A stretch of DNA of 64,000 bases, taken from the NCBI GenBank assembly GCA_036504035.1, contig DASXVV010000004.1:1-64000 (forward strand). The letters are read 5' to 3'. The DNA comes from Candidatus Deferrimicrobiaceae bacterium. Lineage in GTDB: Bacteria; Desulfobacterota; Deferrimicrobia; Deferrimicrobiales; Deferrimicrobiaceae. This document shows, in pieces, positions 6,116 through 18,333 of this stretch. The translations under genes and the position numbers were made by a program. Each line of letters begins with the position of its first letter. The stretch's first letter is position 1. Under the pieces are notes generated by a model. The model made no database searches. It was not told the origin of the DNA and worked only from the letters and a program-made list of their open reading frames with translations.

Positions 6116-8649
<2,534 letters not shown>

Positions 8650-8653
<4 letters not shown>

Positions 8654-9681
8654 GCGGGAGCCCTCGTTCCCGGCGCACGCTCCGAGACGCCGGGGAATTC
8701 GGATTCATCGACGCGATCCGCCGCGCGTACGGAGGGGCCGAGCGGCCCGGCGAGCTGGGCATCGGCGACGACGCCGCGCTGCTGCCGGTGCATGGGCGCA
8801 TGGTGCTTTCCACCGACATGCTCGTCGAGGGGACCCACTTTTCCCTCGGCTATTTCCGGCCCGGCGAGATCGGCGTCCGGGCGCTCTCGTCCAACCTTTC
8901 CGACCTGGCAGCCATGGGCGCCAGGCCCGTCGCTTATCTCGTGGCGATCGCCGCGCCGCCCGACACGCCGCTCGATTTCCTCCGTTCTCTTTACCGCGGC
9001 ATGGCGCTGGCCGCCGCGCCGGCCGGCATGCGGCTCGTCGGCGGCGACACCGTGCGCGGCGACCGGCTCACGCTGTCGGTCACGGTCGTGGGCGAGACCG
9101 CGCCGGGCAAGGCGCTGCTCCGGACCGGCGCCCGCCCGGGCGACCTCGTCGTCGTCACGGGCGAGCCCGGCTGGTCGCGCCTCGGGCTGGCGCTTTTGTT
9201 TCGCGGCCGTCCCGCCCGAGCGGGCGGATGGCGACGCGAGGCGATGCGGCGGCACCTGACCCCCGAGGCGCGTTGGCGGGAAGGAATCGCCGCTGCGGGC
9301 TCCGGCGCGGTCTCCGCCATGATCGACGTCAGCGACGGCGTGCTGGCCGACCTCGGGCACCTGGCCGAAACCGGACCGATCGGCGCGCAGCTCGACGCCG
9401 CGGCGTTCCCGATGTCGATGCGCTTCCTTCTCGCAGCCGAGACGCTGGGGGAGGACCCGATGGCGGCGTTCCTTTCCGGCGGCGAGGATTACGAATTGCT
9501 GATGGCAGTGCCCCCCAAGAAGCTCGACCGGCTGCGCCGGGCGCTCGCGCCCTTCCGCTGCGGGCTGGCCCCGATCGGCCGCTTCACCGAGGCGCCCGGT
9601 GTCGTCGTTGTCACGCCCGACGGAAGCCGGCTCTCCGGAACGGCGCTTCCGACCGGTTTCCGACACTTCGAGCCGCGCTGA
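8650..9681 (+). CDS. thiL: Thiamine-monophosphate kinase
   Basis: A 343-aa ThiL, which phosphorylates thiamine monophosphate to the active cofactor thiamine diphosphate using ATP. The AIRS/ThiL N-terminal motifs are clear: GIGDDAA at residues 37-43 and [11 protein letters not shown] at 54-64 (Mg and substrate binding), followed by [12 protein letters not shown] and GGDT. The C-terminal half contains [10 protein letters not shown] and SGGEDYELL. The length is normal for the family. GTG at 8650 overlaps the lon stop as GTGA. Codon use here (TTT, CTT and TTG present) differs from the very strict G/C-ending codons of lon. Confidence 0.95.
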
Positions 9682-14132: not shown

Positions 14133-14457
14133 CGTCGCCGCAGCTTCGCACGTCGACTCCCAAGGTGGATTGGGAATAATATTTCCCGAGTTCGGTTGTT
14201 AATTACCGTATGCCGCACCTTCCTCCCGTTCGGCGCAAGGCCTCCTTCTGCGCCAAGTCGTTTGATTCCCGGTTACTTGCGACCCCGCCCCTTTCCTGCC
14301 ATATCCCCCGGCGCATAAATTGCTTGCGCTCCAAAGAATCAGCCGTTCTTGCCCGGCCGGTCCGGGGGGAGGTCGCTGCATGGAATAGCGATGCCAGACG
14401 CGCGCAGACCTTATCTCTGAAATCATCGATCGATCGTAAGGAAAGAGAGGTTCCTCG
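14133..14457 (+). other. 325-bp intergenic region upstream of the DUF2589 operon
   Basis: No convincing gene. It begins with a small hairpin (CCCAA at 14159-14163 pairing with TTGGG at 14170-14174) running into an AT-rich tract, possibly a weak larC terminator. A second short palindromic tract GGGAA...TTCCC follows at 14172-14187. A -24/-12 type promoter candidate lies at 14308-14324. The short open frame at 14210-14503 has poor codon bias and no ribosome site. Confidence 0.5.
14308..14324 (+). promoter_or_regulatory. Candidate sigma-54 (-24/-12) promoter of the DUF2589 operon
   Basis: CCGGCGC ... TTGCT with the invariant GG at 14310-14311 and GC at 14322-14323, exactly ten bases apart as sigma-54 requires. 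The -12 part is a good match; the -24 part is weaker (CGGCGC against TGGCAC). The predicted transcript would have a leader of about 120 bases. Confidence 0.5.
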
Positions 14458-15045
14458 ATGTCCATTGGCCAGGAACTGTCGTCCATCGATTTCCAGTCCA
14501 TGATCGGCGGCCCGCTCAACGCCGTCATCAAGGCGCAGGCGCAATCGGCCCAGACCTCGGTCGACTTCATCAAGAGCGTCGGGTTCAACGCGGCCGATGC
14601 CGCGACCGACCCGGGCAAGCCGACGATGGTCACCTTCACGTACGACAAGCCCATCGAGACGAAGGACGCCGCCGGCGTCATCACGGTCACGCCCACCCCC
14701 TTCCGGCTGACCGTGCCCATTCTCACGATGCTGCCCATCCCCTACATCCGGGTCGAAGAGGTCACGATCGACTTCAACGCGAAGATCAATTCCGTCGTCG
14801 AGTCGACGACCACCTCCTCCTCCGAGCTCAATGCCTCGCTGGCGGTCAAGGGCGGGTGGGGCCCGGTCTCCGCGGAATTGAAATGCAGCTACAGCACCAA
14901 GAAATCGACCTCGGCGACCGACAAGACCGAGCGTACCTACAGCCTGATCATCCACGTCCGCGCCGTCCAGGACGAGCTGCCGGCGGGCCTTGAGAAGCTG
15001 CTGGGCGTCCTCGAGAACAGCATCAAGGAAGTCAAGGCGGCCTGA
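14458..15045 (+). CDS. DUF2589 family protein
   Basis: A 195-aa soluble protein that I assign to DUF2589 from its N-terminal pattern ELSSIDFQSMIGGPL followed by an Ala/Gln-rich helix and VDFIKSVGF. DUF2589 has no established function. The rest is predominantly beta-strand-like, with the stretch IPYIRVEEVTID at residues 94-105, a Ser/Thr-rich turn, and a strand-rich end in TYSLIIHVRAVQ. No signal peptide or membrane segment is seen, so it is probably cytoplasmic. It is the first gene of a three-gene cluster, separated from the next gene by 80 bases containing a strong hairpin. A GGAAAGAGAGG ribosome site precedes the ATG. The second gene shares the IPxIR motif. Confidence 0.85.
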   Translation: MSIGQELSSIDFQSMIGGPLNAVIKAQAQSAQTSVDFIKSVGFNAADAATDPGKPTMVTFTYDKPIETKDAAGVITVTPTPFRLTVPILTMLPIPYIRVEEVTIDFNAKINSVVESTTTSSSELNASLAVKGGWGPVSAELKCSYSTKKSTSATDKTERTYSLIIHVRAVQDELPAGLEKLLGVLENSIKEVKAA

Positions 15046-15060
15046 TCGCCGATTGACCGG

Positions 15061-15098
15061 CGGGCAAGGGCGATCCTCCGAACGATCGCCCTTGCCTG
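15061..15098 (+). terminator. Strong intergenic hairpin between DUF2589 gene and partner
   Basis: A perfect 13-bp stem (15063-15075 with 15084-15096), extendable by a G-U and a C-G pair, with an 8-base loop. No U-run follows, so it is more likely an mRNA-stabilising, processing or partial-termination element than a full terminator. Confidence 0.5.
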
Positions 15099-15125
15099 CA
15101 AGCAGAATCGAAAAGGAGGCAACGC

Positions 15126-15803
15126 GTGGCGGATCTCGGGGAGCTGATGGGGGCGATGATGGCCGGATTGATCCGCGCGCGTCGGGTTGCCGACGAGCAG
15201 ACGGCGTCGCTGGCGGAATACTACAAGGACAATCCGCTGCTCGAGGGGCTGTCGATCCCGCGCATCCGGATTCCCGAGATGACGATCGACCTGCCGCTGC
15301 TGATCGAGGATTCCACGTCGGCCCAGGCCGGAGAGATGGAAGCGCCCGCCAAGATCGCGGCCGCGGTCGAGGCCCAGATGAAGGCAACGCTGGCGAAGAA
15401 CAACATCCGCATCGCCCCGGCGTTCAACAAGCCGTTCCTCGAGGCCGTCAAGGGCCGGCTGGCGTCGCTGAAGGATGCGGGCGGGCCGGTCACGAAGGAA
15501 TCGGTGGTGCGCGGCGTCCAGGAGGCGTTCGCCGATACGCTGGCCGGCACGGGCACGACGCTCGGCACGCCCGAGAAGGAGGCCATCGCGAAGGAGCTCC
15601 GGCTCCGCGTCGCGGCCATAAGCCTGGTCAAGGAGCCGGTGATGCCGGGCATCCAGGCCAACATCCGGACGGCCGACGTCAAGGAGCGCGCCTCTGCCCA
15701 GAACGTGGTCCGTCTCAAGATCACCCTCAAGGAAGAGGGGCTCGAATGGGCGACCCAAGCGAGCGACACGGGCGGCGTGATCCGCACGCTCCAGCCCGAA
15801 TAG
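15126..15803 (+). CDS. Unknown protein, DUF2589-like partner
   Basis: A 225-aa soluble protein starting at GTG 15126 behind a consensus AAGGAGG. I do not recognise a named family. The N-terminus is helical (LGELMGAMMAGLIRARR) and is followed by IPRIRIPEMTID at residues 44-55, which lines up with IPYIRVEEVTID of the preceding DUF2589 protein; both are preceded by a helix rich in small and polar residues. This suggests a divergent relative or a common binding partner. The middle is helical and Ala/Lys-rich, and the C-terminus has a strand-rich VVRLKITLKEEGLEW. No signal peptide, membrane helix or catalytic motif is evident. Confidence 0.75.
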   Translation: MADLGELMGAMMAGLIRARRVADEQTASLAEYYKDNPLLEGLSIPRIRIPEMTIDLPLLIEDSTSAQAGEMEAPAKIAAAVEAQMKATLAKNNIRIAPAFNKPFLEAVKGRLASLKDAGGPVTKESVVRGVQEAFADTLAGTGTTLGTPEKEAIAKELRLRVAAISLVKEPVMPGIQANIRTADVKERASAQNVVRLKITLKEEGLEWATQASDTGGVIRTLQPE

Positions 15804-15834
15804 CGCCCCTTCCCCTGAAAAAGGAGGCCGGCCG

Positions 15835-16407
15835 ATGCAATGCATTCTGCGGGAAAAGCTGGTGGCGCAGGCGGTGCTCCTGTCGGCCGTCAGCCAGGTC
15901 TACCGCACCGAGAGCAACCGCTTCGTCGAGGCCTACCTCGCCTGGCTGGAGGCGGCCGAGAAGGATCTGGCCGGCCTGCGTGCGCCGATCGGCATCCTGC
16001 TGCAGTCCGAGAAAAGCGCGCTGATCTCGGTGCTCGACGGCTACGTGCCGGGACACGTCCAGCCCGGGCGGAACCTCCGGAAAATAATGAAGGCCGCGGC
16101 CGCCCAGTCGCTCGAACGGATCTCCCGCGAGATCTTTTCGAAGGTCGAGCACATCGACCAGGAGCTCGGGCAGCAAAGCGAAAAGATGTGCCACGCCGTC
16201 GCGGTCCTGTTGTCCAAGTCGCCCGAGATCGTCCCGCTGCTCGATCCGGCCCAGCCGGGGATCGACAAGGTCTGGCATCTGCTCGGCGCGACGCCCGAGA
16301 CCGCGTCGATGTATCACTACTTCAGCGCGAAGCTCGCCGTATCCGACCGGAACTACCTCCTCGGCGACATCCTCCAGAAGATCGTCGCCAACCGGGTCCC
16401 TGCCTGA
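15835..16407 (+). CDS. Unknown all-helical cytoplasmic protein, third gene of DUF2589 operon
   Basis: A 190-aa protein with no recognised domain. It appears entirely alpha-helical: an N-terminal amphipathic run (residues 1-60) with Trp and Tyr residues, a central Lys/Ala-rich helix, and a region reading QELGQQSEKMCHAVAVLL. There is no export signal. A consensus AAGGAGG lies before ATG 15835, 31 bases after the previous stop, so it is cotranscribed with the two upstream genes. It could be an adaptor or assembly factor for the DUF2589 pair, but that is inference from position only. Confidence 0.72.
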   Translation: MQCILREKLVAQAVLLSAVSQVYRTESNRFVEAYLAWLEAAEKDLAGLRAPIGILLQSEKSALISVLDGYVPGHVQPGRNLRKIMKAAAAQSLERISREIFSKVEHIDQELGQQSEKMCHAVAVLLSKSPEIVPLLDPAQPGIDKVWHLLGATPETASMYHYFSAKLAVSDRNYLLGDILQKIVANRVPA

Positions 16408-16433
16408 GCCGAAGTCCGATGCTCGGGCGGTCT

Positions 16434-16498
16434 AATTATTTACTGAATAATTCGATTATTTGAGGAAACGAATGGCCAGGCACGGACCCCGATCGGGG
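16434..16498 (+). other. AT-rich inverted repeat and GC palindrome in the gap before the cytochrome
   Basis: AATTATT (16434-16440) and AATAATT (16446-16452) form a 7-bp inverted repeat in a strikingly AT-rich patch. A perfect 12-bp palindrome CCCCGATCGGGG lies at 16487-16498. These may be an operator or activator site for the downstream sigma-54-like promoter, or a terminator of the upstream operon; neither can be decided by eye. Confidence 0.35.
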
Positions 16499-16548
16499 AT
16501 AAAGTGTCAATCCGCTGGATTTCCGGAGGGTTTTTCAGGGCATTCGTG

Positions 16549-16565
16549 AGGCATGACGGTTGCAA
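16549..16565 (+). promoter_or_regulatory. Candidate sigma-54 (-24/-12) promoter of the multiheme cytochrome gene
   Basis: AGGCAT...TTGCA with GG at 16550-16551 and GC at 16562-16563, exactly ten bases apart. The -12 element is a full match and the -24 element a good one. Transcription would start about 16575, giving a leader of roughly 29 bases that contains the AAGGAGG of the cytochrome gene. Confidence 0.6.
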
Positions 16566-16603
16566 AGATTCTGTATCCGATCAGGCTGCCCAAGGAGGAC
16601 GCG

Positions 16604-18253
16604 ATGAATCCACGCATGGCATCACGAATGGCCGCGCTCTTGACCACGATGGCTTTCCTGTTTTCAGGGTGTGTGGAGGACACCGTTCCGATCGACACGT
16701 CGCACGCGGTCGTCGCCTGGAACGACCTGGGCATGCATTGCATGGACAACGACTATTCCGTGTTCGCCATCCTGCCCCCCTACAACAACCTGCACGCCCA
16801 GGTCGTCAACCGGTCGACCGGCAAGGAGGTCACCTCCGGGATCTCGGTCACCTACCAGGCCACAAAGGATACGCGGAGTTCCATCAACACCACCAGCGTG
16901 GGCAAGACCAACTTCTGGAGCTACGTCGGCGACCTGTTCGGGGTGACGCTGCCGCCGGATACGGGCCTGGCAGGCAACCGGACTCCGAGCCGCTCCCCGG
17001 CCGCGATGGCCTACGACAACGTGAAGGGGTTCTGGAAGGCCGACGGAATCCCCATCGTGTGCACCGATGACGCGGGCCAGACGGACTACTACCCGATGGT
17101 GAAAGTGGTTGTGAAAAACGGGCGGGGCGAGACCATCGCAACGACGAAAACCGTGCTCCCGGTCAGCAACGAGATGACGTGCAAGGGGTGCCACTCCTCC
17201 AACGTGGGCGGCGCCGTGGATGCCCTTCCGGCGGCGGGATGGGCCTTCGACCCCAACCTCGAAAAAGACTGGAAGCTGAATATCCTCCGGATCCACGACG
17301 ACCGGAATTTCGCCGATCCCGCCCGCGCGGCCGTATACGCGGGTGTGCTTTCGGCGAATGGATTCGACGGGACGGGGCTCGAGAACACCGTCAGGCTATC
17401 CGGGAAGCCGGTCCTTTGCGCACAATGCCATCGCTCGAATGCCCTGGGAACAGCCGGAGCCGTAGGCGTCAAGCCGCTGACTGCGGCGATGCACACCCAC
17501 CACGCGCCCGTGATGCAGGACTCCACGGGCATGCCGCTCGACGACGGGACCGACCGTACGGCGTGCTACTGCTGCCACCCCGGTTCCATCACGCAATGTC
17601 TGCGCGGGACGATGGGAAATGCCGTGGACGCCTCGGGGAACCCGTTGATCCAGTGCCAGAGTTGCCACGGGAACATGTCCGCCGTCGGGGCGTCCACGCG
17701 GCAAGGTTGGCTCGACATGCCCGACTGCCGGTACTGCCACTACCAGTCGTCCGCCAAGGGAAGCTACGTGCGCGACAACACGGTCTTCGACGCGGCCGGA
17801 GGATACCGGCAAGCGACGGGAATCTTCGGAAGCCCCGGGCTTTATAAGGTTTCCGCCGGGCACGGCCGGATCCAGTGCGAGGGATGCCACGGCCCCACGC
17901 ACGCCGAGTATGCGTGCTCCGAGGCGAACGATAATGTCCAGAGCACCGCGCTTCAGGGATATGCCGGAAAGATCACGGAATGCGAGGTCTGCCACGTCCG
18001 AGTTCCACTCACGAAGAACGGCGGTCCCCACGGCGTTCACACCCTGGGAGAGAGCTGGGTCGCGCTGCACGGTCCTTTCGTGAAGAGCGATCCCGCATAC
18101 TGCGCGACTTGTCATGGCGCCGATTTCCGGGGAACGTTCCTTTCGAAGGTTCCGGTCGGGAGATTCTTCAACCAAGGGCCATTGGGGCGAATCACCCTCG
18201 CGCGGGGGCATTTGGTGAGCTGCTTCGATTGCCACTCCCGGCGGACCTGGTAA
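16604..18253 (+). CDS. Nonaheme c-type cytochrome lipoprotein
   Basis: A 549-aa exported protein with a lipoprotein signal: hydrophobic segment MAALLTTMAFLFSGC with the lipobox Cys at residue 23. Nine CxxCH heme-attachment motifs are visible (CKGCH, CAQCH, CYCCH, CQSCH, CRYCH, CEGCH, CEVCH, CATCH, CFDCH), all in the C-terminal two thirds. The N-terminal domain begins AWNDLGMHCMDNDYSVF, a block I associate with multiheme proteins of metal-respiring and related bacteria. It likely sits in the periplasm or on the outer membrane and carries electrons. ATG 16604 is chosen over the upstream ATG at 16553 because it has AAGGAGG, sets up the lipoprotein signal correctly, and the upstream ATG falls inside the -24/-12 promoter. 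Confidence 0.92.
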   Translation: MNPRMASRMAALLTTMAFLFSGCVEDTVPIDTSHAVVAWNDLGMHCMDNDYSVFAILPPYNNLHAQVVNRSTGKEVTSGISVTYQATKDTRSSINTTSVGKTNFWSYVGDLFGVTLPPDTGLAGNRTPSRSPAAMAYDNVKGFWKADGIPIVCTDDAGQTDYYPMVKVVVKNGRGETIATTKTVLPVSNEMTCKGCHSSNVGGAVDALPAAGWAFDPNLEKDWKLNILRIHDDRNFADPARAAVYAGVLSANGFDGTGLENTVRLSGKPVLCAQCHRSNALGTAGAVGVKPLTAAMHTHHAPVMQDSTGMPLDDGTDRTACYCCHPGSITQCLRGTMGNAVDASGNPLIQCQSCHGNMSAVGASTRQGWLDMPDCRYCHYQSSAKGSYVRDNTVFDAAGGYRQATGIFGSPGLYKVSAGHGRIQCEGCHGPTHAEYACSEANDNVQSTALQGYAGKITECEVCHVRVPLTKNGGPHGVHTLGESWVALHGPFVKSDPAYCATCHGADFRGTFLSKVPVGRFFNQGPLGRITLARGHLVSCFDCHSRRTW

Positions 18254-18275
18254 CGGCGTCGCCGTACCGGGCGCA

Positions 18276-18305
18276 TTGACCCGTCCGCGGAGAAAGTGAT
18301 GTAAT
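18276..18305 (+). promoter_or_regulatory. Candidate sigma-70 promoter of radA
   Basis: TTGACC at 18276-18281, an 18-base spacer, and TGTAAT at 18300-18305, 28 bases before the radA start. Confidence 0.5.
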
Positions 18306-18333
18306 CGCCTATCCCCTCCGGAAACGAGGTCTC

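Follow-up and report, generated by a model that had tools for sequence, protein, structure and literature searches.

The window analysed here, a stretch of 64,000 nucleotides (nt) from Candidatus Deferrimicrobiaceae bacterium (contig DASXVV010000004.1, positions 1 to 64,000), contains an operon of three genes, P1, P2 and P3, the first of which encodes a DUF2589 protein. P1-P2-P3 is, with near certainty, a conserved three-gene unit; it has spread horizontally across bacterial phyla, including into archaea, and it matches no described system, as the initial annotation of this DNA had supposed. We consider it close to an even call that the unit is a stand-alone, horizontally spread system building a cytoplasmic protein oligomer, in which P1 would be the main subunit. 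The elements of the operon are the following:

14458-15045, + strand: P1, DUF2589 protein, ATG start, 195 amino acids, ribosome site AGAGAGG.
15046-15125, + strand: intercistronic RNA hairpin, core GCGGGCAAGGGCGATC...GATCGCCCTTGCCTGC, -38.8 kcal/mol, z -4.3.
15126-15803, + strand: P2, GTG start, 225 amino acids, ribosome site AAAAGGAGG.
15835-16407, + strand: P3, ATG start, 190 amino acids, ribosome site AAAGGAGG.

The intergenic spacing is 80 nt between P1 and P2 and 31 nt between P2 and P3. The open reading frame (ORF) positions, the strand and the ribosome sites given in the initial annotation were all reproduced, and its assignment of the three linked genes to a single transcription unit is judged right, the same order recurring elsewhere. 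Between two Methanoperedens species, the ratio of non-synonymous to synonymous substitution (dN/dS) was 0.10 for P1, 0.17 for P2 and 0.19 for P3 (0.07-0.08 for the adjoining housekeeping genes in the same pair), values well below 1 that reveal purifying selection on the three sequences, which are therefore real genes.

A two-row P1 alignment, run against 84,980 species genomes, retrieved 70 loci (numbered with the prefix L); an alignment built from more varied DUF2589 proteins was not stringent enough for such scans, and the locus set is biased to the relatives of the two rows used. P1, P2 and P3 are found in this order on a single strand in 21 other loci among these 70, in Gamma- and Betaproteobacteria, Desulfuromonadales, Desulfobacterales, Geobacterales, Bacteroidota, Chlorobiota, Clostridia, a KSB1 bin and, among the archaea, two Candidatus Methanoperedens genomes. 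The search with P3 alone, which covered 395 genomes from the phylum of the window and 300 from a burkholderial order, gave three new places, two of them with P1-P2-P3 (L117 and L118, P3 of the latter being recovered by profile search); P3 was present in 3 of the 395 genomes of the phylum, counting the one that holds the window. The co-occurrence of the three genes, on which the initial annotation had staked its proposal, is consequently strongly positive, with 21 other loci found with P1 and two more with P3 alone. P3 was single copy and located at the operon in all 17 operon genomes tested, and it was absent from the three tested genomes carrying other DUF2589 clusters. No flanking gene was common to all operons. 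Three close P1 copies (L021, L034, L037) had neither P2 nor P3 within the stretch retrieved: P1 lies at a contig end in L021 and L037, and P2 was located on a separate contig of the same genome for L034 and L037 (none was found for L021). At L034, from an Anaerolineae bin, an apparent transposase gene (8600-9210) lies directly 3' of P1, and the operon was possibly broken by an insertion sequence. The third place found with P3 alone (L116, 1700-2424, minus strand) is a decayed operon near ftsZ, in which P3 is intact, P2 is reduced to its end and P1 is missing.

In the host genome, the operon is part of an insertion:

14133-18333: 4.2 kb insertion between larC and radA, containing the operon and a multihaem-cytochrome-like gene.

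The larC and radA genes overlap or touch in two congeners and three family members, so that this is a clean empty-site comparison, and a search of 119 genomes around the host, with the host's among them, found a DUF2589 gene of any kind in just 3, again counting the host. The insert comprises four genes, none of them recognisable as an integrase or transposase. The multihaem-cytochrome-like gene (16553-18253) shares the insertion, and an 84% identical copy is present elsewhere in a congener (G002:C70). Concerning mobile elements, P3 gave no match in the viral contig scan or in PHROGs, and no plasmid carriage of P3 was found; P1 matched a viral model in BFVD (E 9e-7). A phage origin was considered and discarded: the sole phage record matching P1 is an unverified faecal clone of 4 kb with Bacteroidales-like gene content.

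The near-identical copies come mostly from metagenome-assembled genomes, and an artefact (contaminating contigs or chance ORFs) would account for such a pattern; nevertheless, we hold this explanation to be hardly credible. The operon composition broadly tracks the host (cluster I operons ranging from 0.35 to 0.65 in GC, and from 0.22 to 0.92 in third-codon GC), and isolates carry the operon (Aquabacterium, Psychromonas). The two Methanoperedens operons share one site, between hexulose-6-phosphate synthase and the archaeal flap endonuclease-1 (FEN-1), and in the operon tree they nest with a Geobacter copy (support 100/98), indicating that bin contamination is not the explanation there. Contamination was rejected on the host-tracking GC, the shared Methanoperedens site and the dN/dS values.

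Constraint is much stronger on P1 than on the other two proteins: its mean identity within cluster I is 0.86, compared with 0.62 for P2 and 0.63 for P3, and its identity is about 80-95% across the main cluster. The P1 proteins of the window and of a Desulfuromonad copy are 94% identical, and 85% of the synonymous sites of their genes differ, that is, they are saturated. Overall, the distance matrices of P1, P2 and P3 are in agreement (Mantel 0.65-0.81); inside cluster I, P1 distances are uncorrelated with P2 and P3 distances (Mantel about 0), probably owing to insufficient variation in P1. The crossing of the unit between bacteria and archaea, and the conservation of P1 despite synonymous saturation, point to a probably general function, useful for the hosts.

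A covarying RNA hairpin is conserved between P1 and P2-P3. The P1-P2 gap measures 71-86 nt in cluster I, and most operons have a strong stem-loop there (z down to -6.7). In an alignment of 12 sequences, 89.6% of the cells were paired, compensatory changes were observed in 11 of 12 pairs, the covariation score was 0.518 (0.255 in shuffled alignments), and slid registers dropped to about 50% paired; RNAalifold concurs with this structure. The 12 sequences were picked for carrying the hairpin, which inflates the paired percentage, so that the compensatory changes in a single register are the stronger evidence. No U-run was present 3' of the stem in the window, and Rfam gave nothing above threshold. 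Haloarchaeal gas vesicle operons have a stem-loop in this position that stabilises the mRNA of gvpA, whose product accounts for >95% of the vesicle wall (PMC4390858); by analogy with this placement, P1 is probably produced in excess.

P1 is a true family member: it passes the curated cut-off of DUF2589 (PF11655) across the whole model (96.9 bits against a cut-off of 23, 2e-27, model positions 2-153 of 154), in agreement with the identity first given to it. Its predicted organisation is:

P1 secondary structure (AlphaFold2 model): helix 12-42; strands 57-69, 75-87, 101-114 and 157-170; helix 176-187.
P1 residues about 109-160: flexible Ser/Thr-rich amphipathic beta-hairpin (composition and alternation analysis).

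The AlphaFold2 model (predicted local distance difference test, pLDDT, 63; predicted template modelling score, pTM, 0.44) has a core of moderate confidence and a disordered segment at 111-159 (pLDDT below 50). Family-wide, the Ser/Thr content of the central DUF2589 segment is 27-45%, compared with 7-17% in the rest of the same proteins; the two strands show alternating hydropathy in 30 of 35 members (p below 0.05), and the tip between them is mostly Gly/Trp-rich. Strand 3 through strand 4 spans 74.1 +/- 4.6 residues with 21-38% Ser+Thr, and a 52-residue window with 33% Ser+Thr exists in 24 of 35 DUF2589 proteins versus 0 of 55 control neighbour proteins. In a Psychromonas DUF2589 protein (L079, 7875-8903), the turn of the first beta-hairpin holds inserted SGGSGYT-type repeats.

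P2 had no Pfam family above cut-off; its top match was DUF2589 (14.8 bits versus 23, E=0.037), and the comparison of P2 and DUF2589 profiles gave a weak match (pairwise E 0.002, probability 14%). In a 22-row alignment, the first 70 residues of P2, at its N-terminus, are collinear with DUF2589 (a helix, then a LSIPRIRIPEMTIDL strand), followed by a helical-looking middle and a conserved C-terminal LKITLKEEGLEW...LQPE. P3 had no Pfam match; its AlphaFold2 model is confident and all-helical (pLDDT 90.4, pTM 0.78), bearing out the helical third protein of the initial annotation. The fold search of the Protein Data Bank (PDB) returned nothing at E below 0.4 for P3, and no significant match for P1, whose query was a low-confidence model; the top P1 matches, not significant, were PlPVC1 chains (an extracellular contractile injection particle) with E 0.4 and TM-score below 0.2. 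Searches of P1-P3 in NCBIfam, PADLOC and PHROGs gave nothing useful (no PADLOC model matched at E up to 0.1), neither a catalytic nor a gas vesicle family was among their Pfam and NCBIfam matches, and the open-access literature searched held one passing mention of DUF2589.

The initial annotation had also placed the operon under sigma-54 control, based on a string upstream of P1:

14310-14323, + strand: GG-N10-GC string, proposed sigma-54 promoter, not supported.

The string is present, but at chance level: there was 1 GG-N10-GC match in the window versus 0.69 expected, a number reached in 50 of 100 shuffles, and a looser sigma-54 pattern gave 14 matches versus 15 expected. For its position just 5' of P1, the local p is about 0.01. 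The best sigma-54 matches 5' of the other operons are at different positions and mostly weak. The operon is also carried by archaea, and to our knowledge archaea lack sigma-54. The promoter was rejected as unsupported on its chance frequency and its lack of conservation across operons; the host has about 23 strong sigma-54 activators, and given these, local sigma-54 control of the operon may exist. No common leader alignment 5' of P1 was obtained across operons. The leaders of L014, L015, L016, L026 and L033 contain an extra near-perfect ribosome site GGAGGTGA, about 97-152 nt 5' of P1, behind which several have a very short ORF (e.g. ATG-AGA-TGA); in the window, a similar GGGGAGGT stands ahead of ATG-GAA-TAG (14367-14390). 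These sites and short ORFs are possibly leader peptides or start-stop elements.

The oligomer that we favour would be built as follows. The RNA hairpin would protect the P1 part of the mRNA, leaving P1 in large excess as the main subunit; the Ser/Thr-rich beta-hairpin of P1 would become ordered only upon assembly of the subunits into a ring or tube, and the assembled hairpins would plausibly constitute a beta-barrel capable of inserting into a membrane. P2, whose fold may be a reduced version of that of DUF2589, would be a minor subunit capping or adapting the oligomer, and P3 a helical partner controlling assembly, the three proteins acting together in one complex, as proposed before. We infer the oligomeric assembly of P1 and the ordering of its hairpin; a membrane pore formed by P1 is speculative. 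The agreement of the P1 hairpin region with aerolysin-family insertion regions in length and Ser/Thr content, and the cell-wall hydrolases near related DUF2589 clusters (both described below), also speak for the oligomer. Several observations weigh against this oligomer: the confidence of the P1 model is low (pTM 0.44), the predicted kinship of P2 and P1 is weak, amphipathic strands are found in ordinary beta-sandwiches too, the absence of a PDB fold match for P1 or P3 leaves the assembly without structural-homology support, and there is no significant gap hairpin in four operons (L017, L028, L031, L035) and a weak one in L022.

Other functions would account for part of these data. P1 might be a beta-pore that acts on the membrane from within, for self-lysis, release or export, an aerolysin-type module kept inactive by P2 and P3. 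The length, Ser/Thr content and alternation of the P1 hairpin are within the range published for the insertion regions of the aerolysin family (75 +/- 8 residues, 23-44% Ser+Thr, amphipathic and flexible; PMC4823867), and hydrolases adjoin other DUF2589 clusters: a PF11860 muramidase in about half of the Bacteroidales loci, the same muramidase type on the deltaproteobacterial plasmid Smac51, and a lysozyme in Burkholderia stagnalis, a recurrent linkage that hints at an envelope role. Nonetheless, P1 has no sequence or fold match to pore formers, no muramidase turned up next to P1-P2-P3, and P1 evolves too slowly for a weapon, making this pore unlikely. We regard as rather unlikely a soluble tube or filament with no membrane role (a tail-tube-like or gas-vesicle-like inclusion); the extreme constraint on P1, the gvpA-like layout of the mRNA and the PlPVC1 matches would fit it, but these matches are uninformative at their E and TM-score values, and there are no sheath, baseplate or gvp genes nearby.

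A soluble metabolic or stress-response complex, enzyme or chaperone-like, agrees with the lactate up-regulation of the DUF2589-related genes AF0414-AF0417 of Archaeoglobus (PMC3949148) and with the many operon hosts that are anaerobes or sediment organisms; it seems improbable considering that P1-P3 include no catalytic family and have no consistent metabolic neighbour. Quite improbable is a defence system, or a conflict system of another kind, that travels as a small island: its sporadic distribution in the phylum, the insertion at an otherwise closed larC-radA junction and the cross-domain transfer are compatible with such a system, but P1-P3 matched neither PADLOC nor PHROGs, the neighbours of the operon are mostly ordinary metabolism genes, and P1 is near-invariant, unlike arms-race proteins.

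We would propose tentatively that the P1-P2-P3 oligomer belongs to a new class of cytoplasmic beta-assembly, common to bacteria and archaea, in which P1 would form a barrel in the cell's own membrane or a tube, its excess being set by the RNA hairpin, with two dedicated partners. The unit has no counterpart in Pfam (beyond the DUF), NCBIfam, PHROGs, PADLOC or the PDB, and it is small enough to be expressed whole, so that direct experiment could give a function to the entire family.

The nearest relatives are the DUF2589 clusters of Bacteroidales, cyanobacteria, Vibrio plasmids and Archaeoglobus, all of which have the Ser/Thr-rich central segment. In the Bacteroidales clusters (DUF2589, P2-like, DUF2589, zinc ribbon), the first DUF2589 gene is likewise followed by a P2-like gene. 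Unlike the operon, the DUF2589 clusters of these groups contain several paralogues of DUF2589 together with a zinc-ribbon protein and, in many cases, a muramidase; they have no described function. A Porphyromonas locus (L050, 12109-15080) has DUF2589 domains in fusion with leucine-rich-like, Ig-like and DUF6734 domains, reminiscent of a single assembly domain bearing different cargoes. A distinct cluster type (Vibrio plasmids, the Smac51 plasmid and G089) has a conserved, family-less protein of 84-91 residues after DUF2589:

L006, 7484-7738: 84-91 residue protein.
L009, 8914-9189: 84-91 residue protein.
L010, 8833-9108: 84-91 residue protein.
L012, 8933-9196: 84-91 residue protein.

With the aerolysin-family beta-pore formers, DUF2589 shares a flexible, amphipathic, Ser/Thr-rich strand-loop-strand of equal length and composition (PMC4823867). 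P1 differs from them in being intracellular and extremely conserved, with fixed partner genes, no receptor-binding domain and no secretion signal seen; it has no sequence or fold homology to this family (no Pfam match and no PDB match, the model being of low confidence), and the likeness is therefore a resemblance of design, not membership.

The likeness to the gvpA-gvpC operons is in the layout, with the major-subunit gene first, the stem-loop next and the minor genes after (PMC4390858). P1 has no sequence similarity to the gas vesicle proteins, no other gvp genes accompany it, and it differs in its 195 amino acids and secondary structure. The first protein is highly conserved in both cases, as measured here for P1, the gvpA product being very highly conserved as well. 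By this analogy, the P1 operon would work like a gas vesicle system without being a member of that family.
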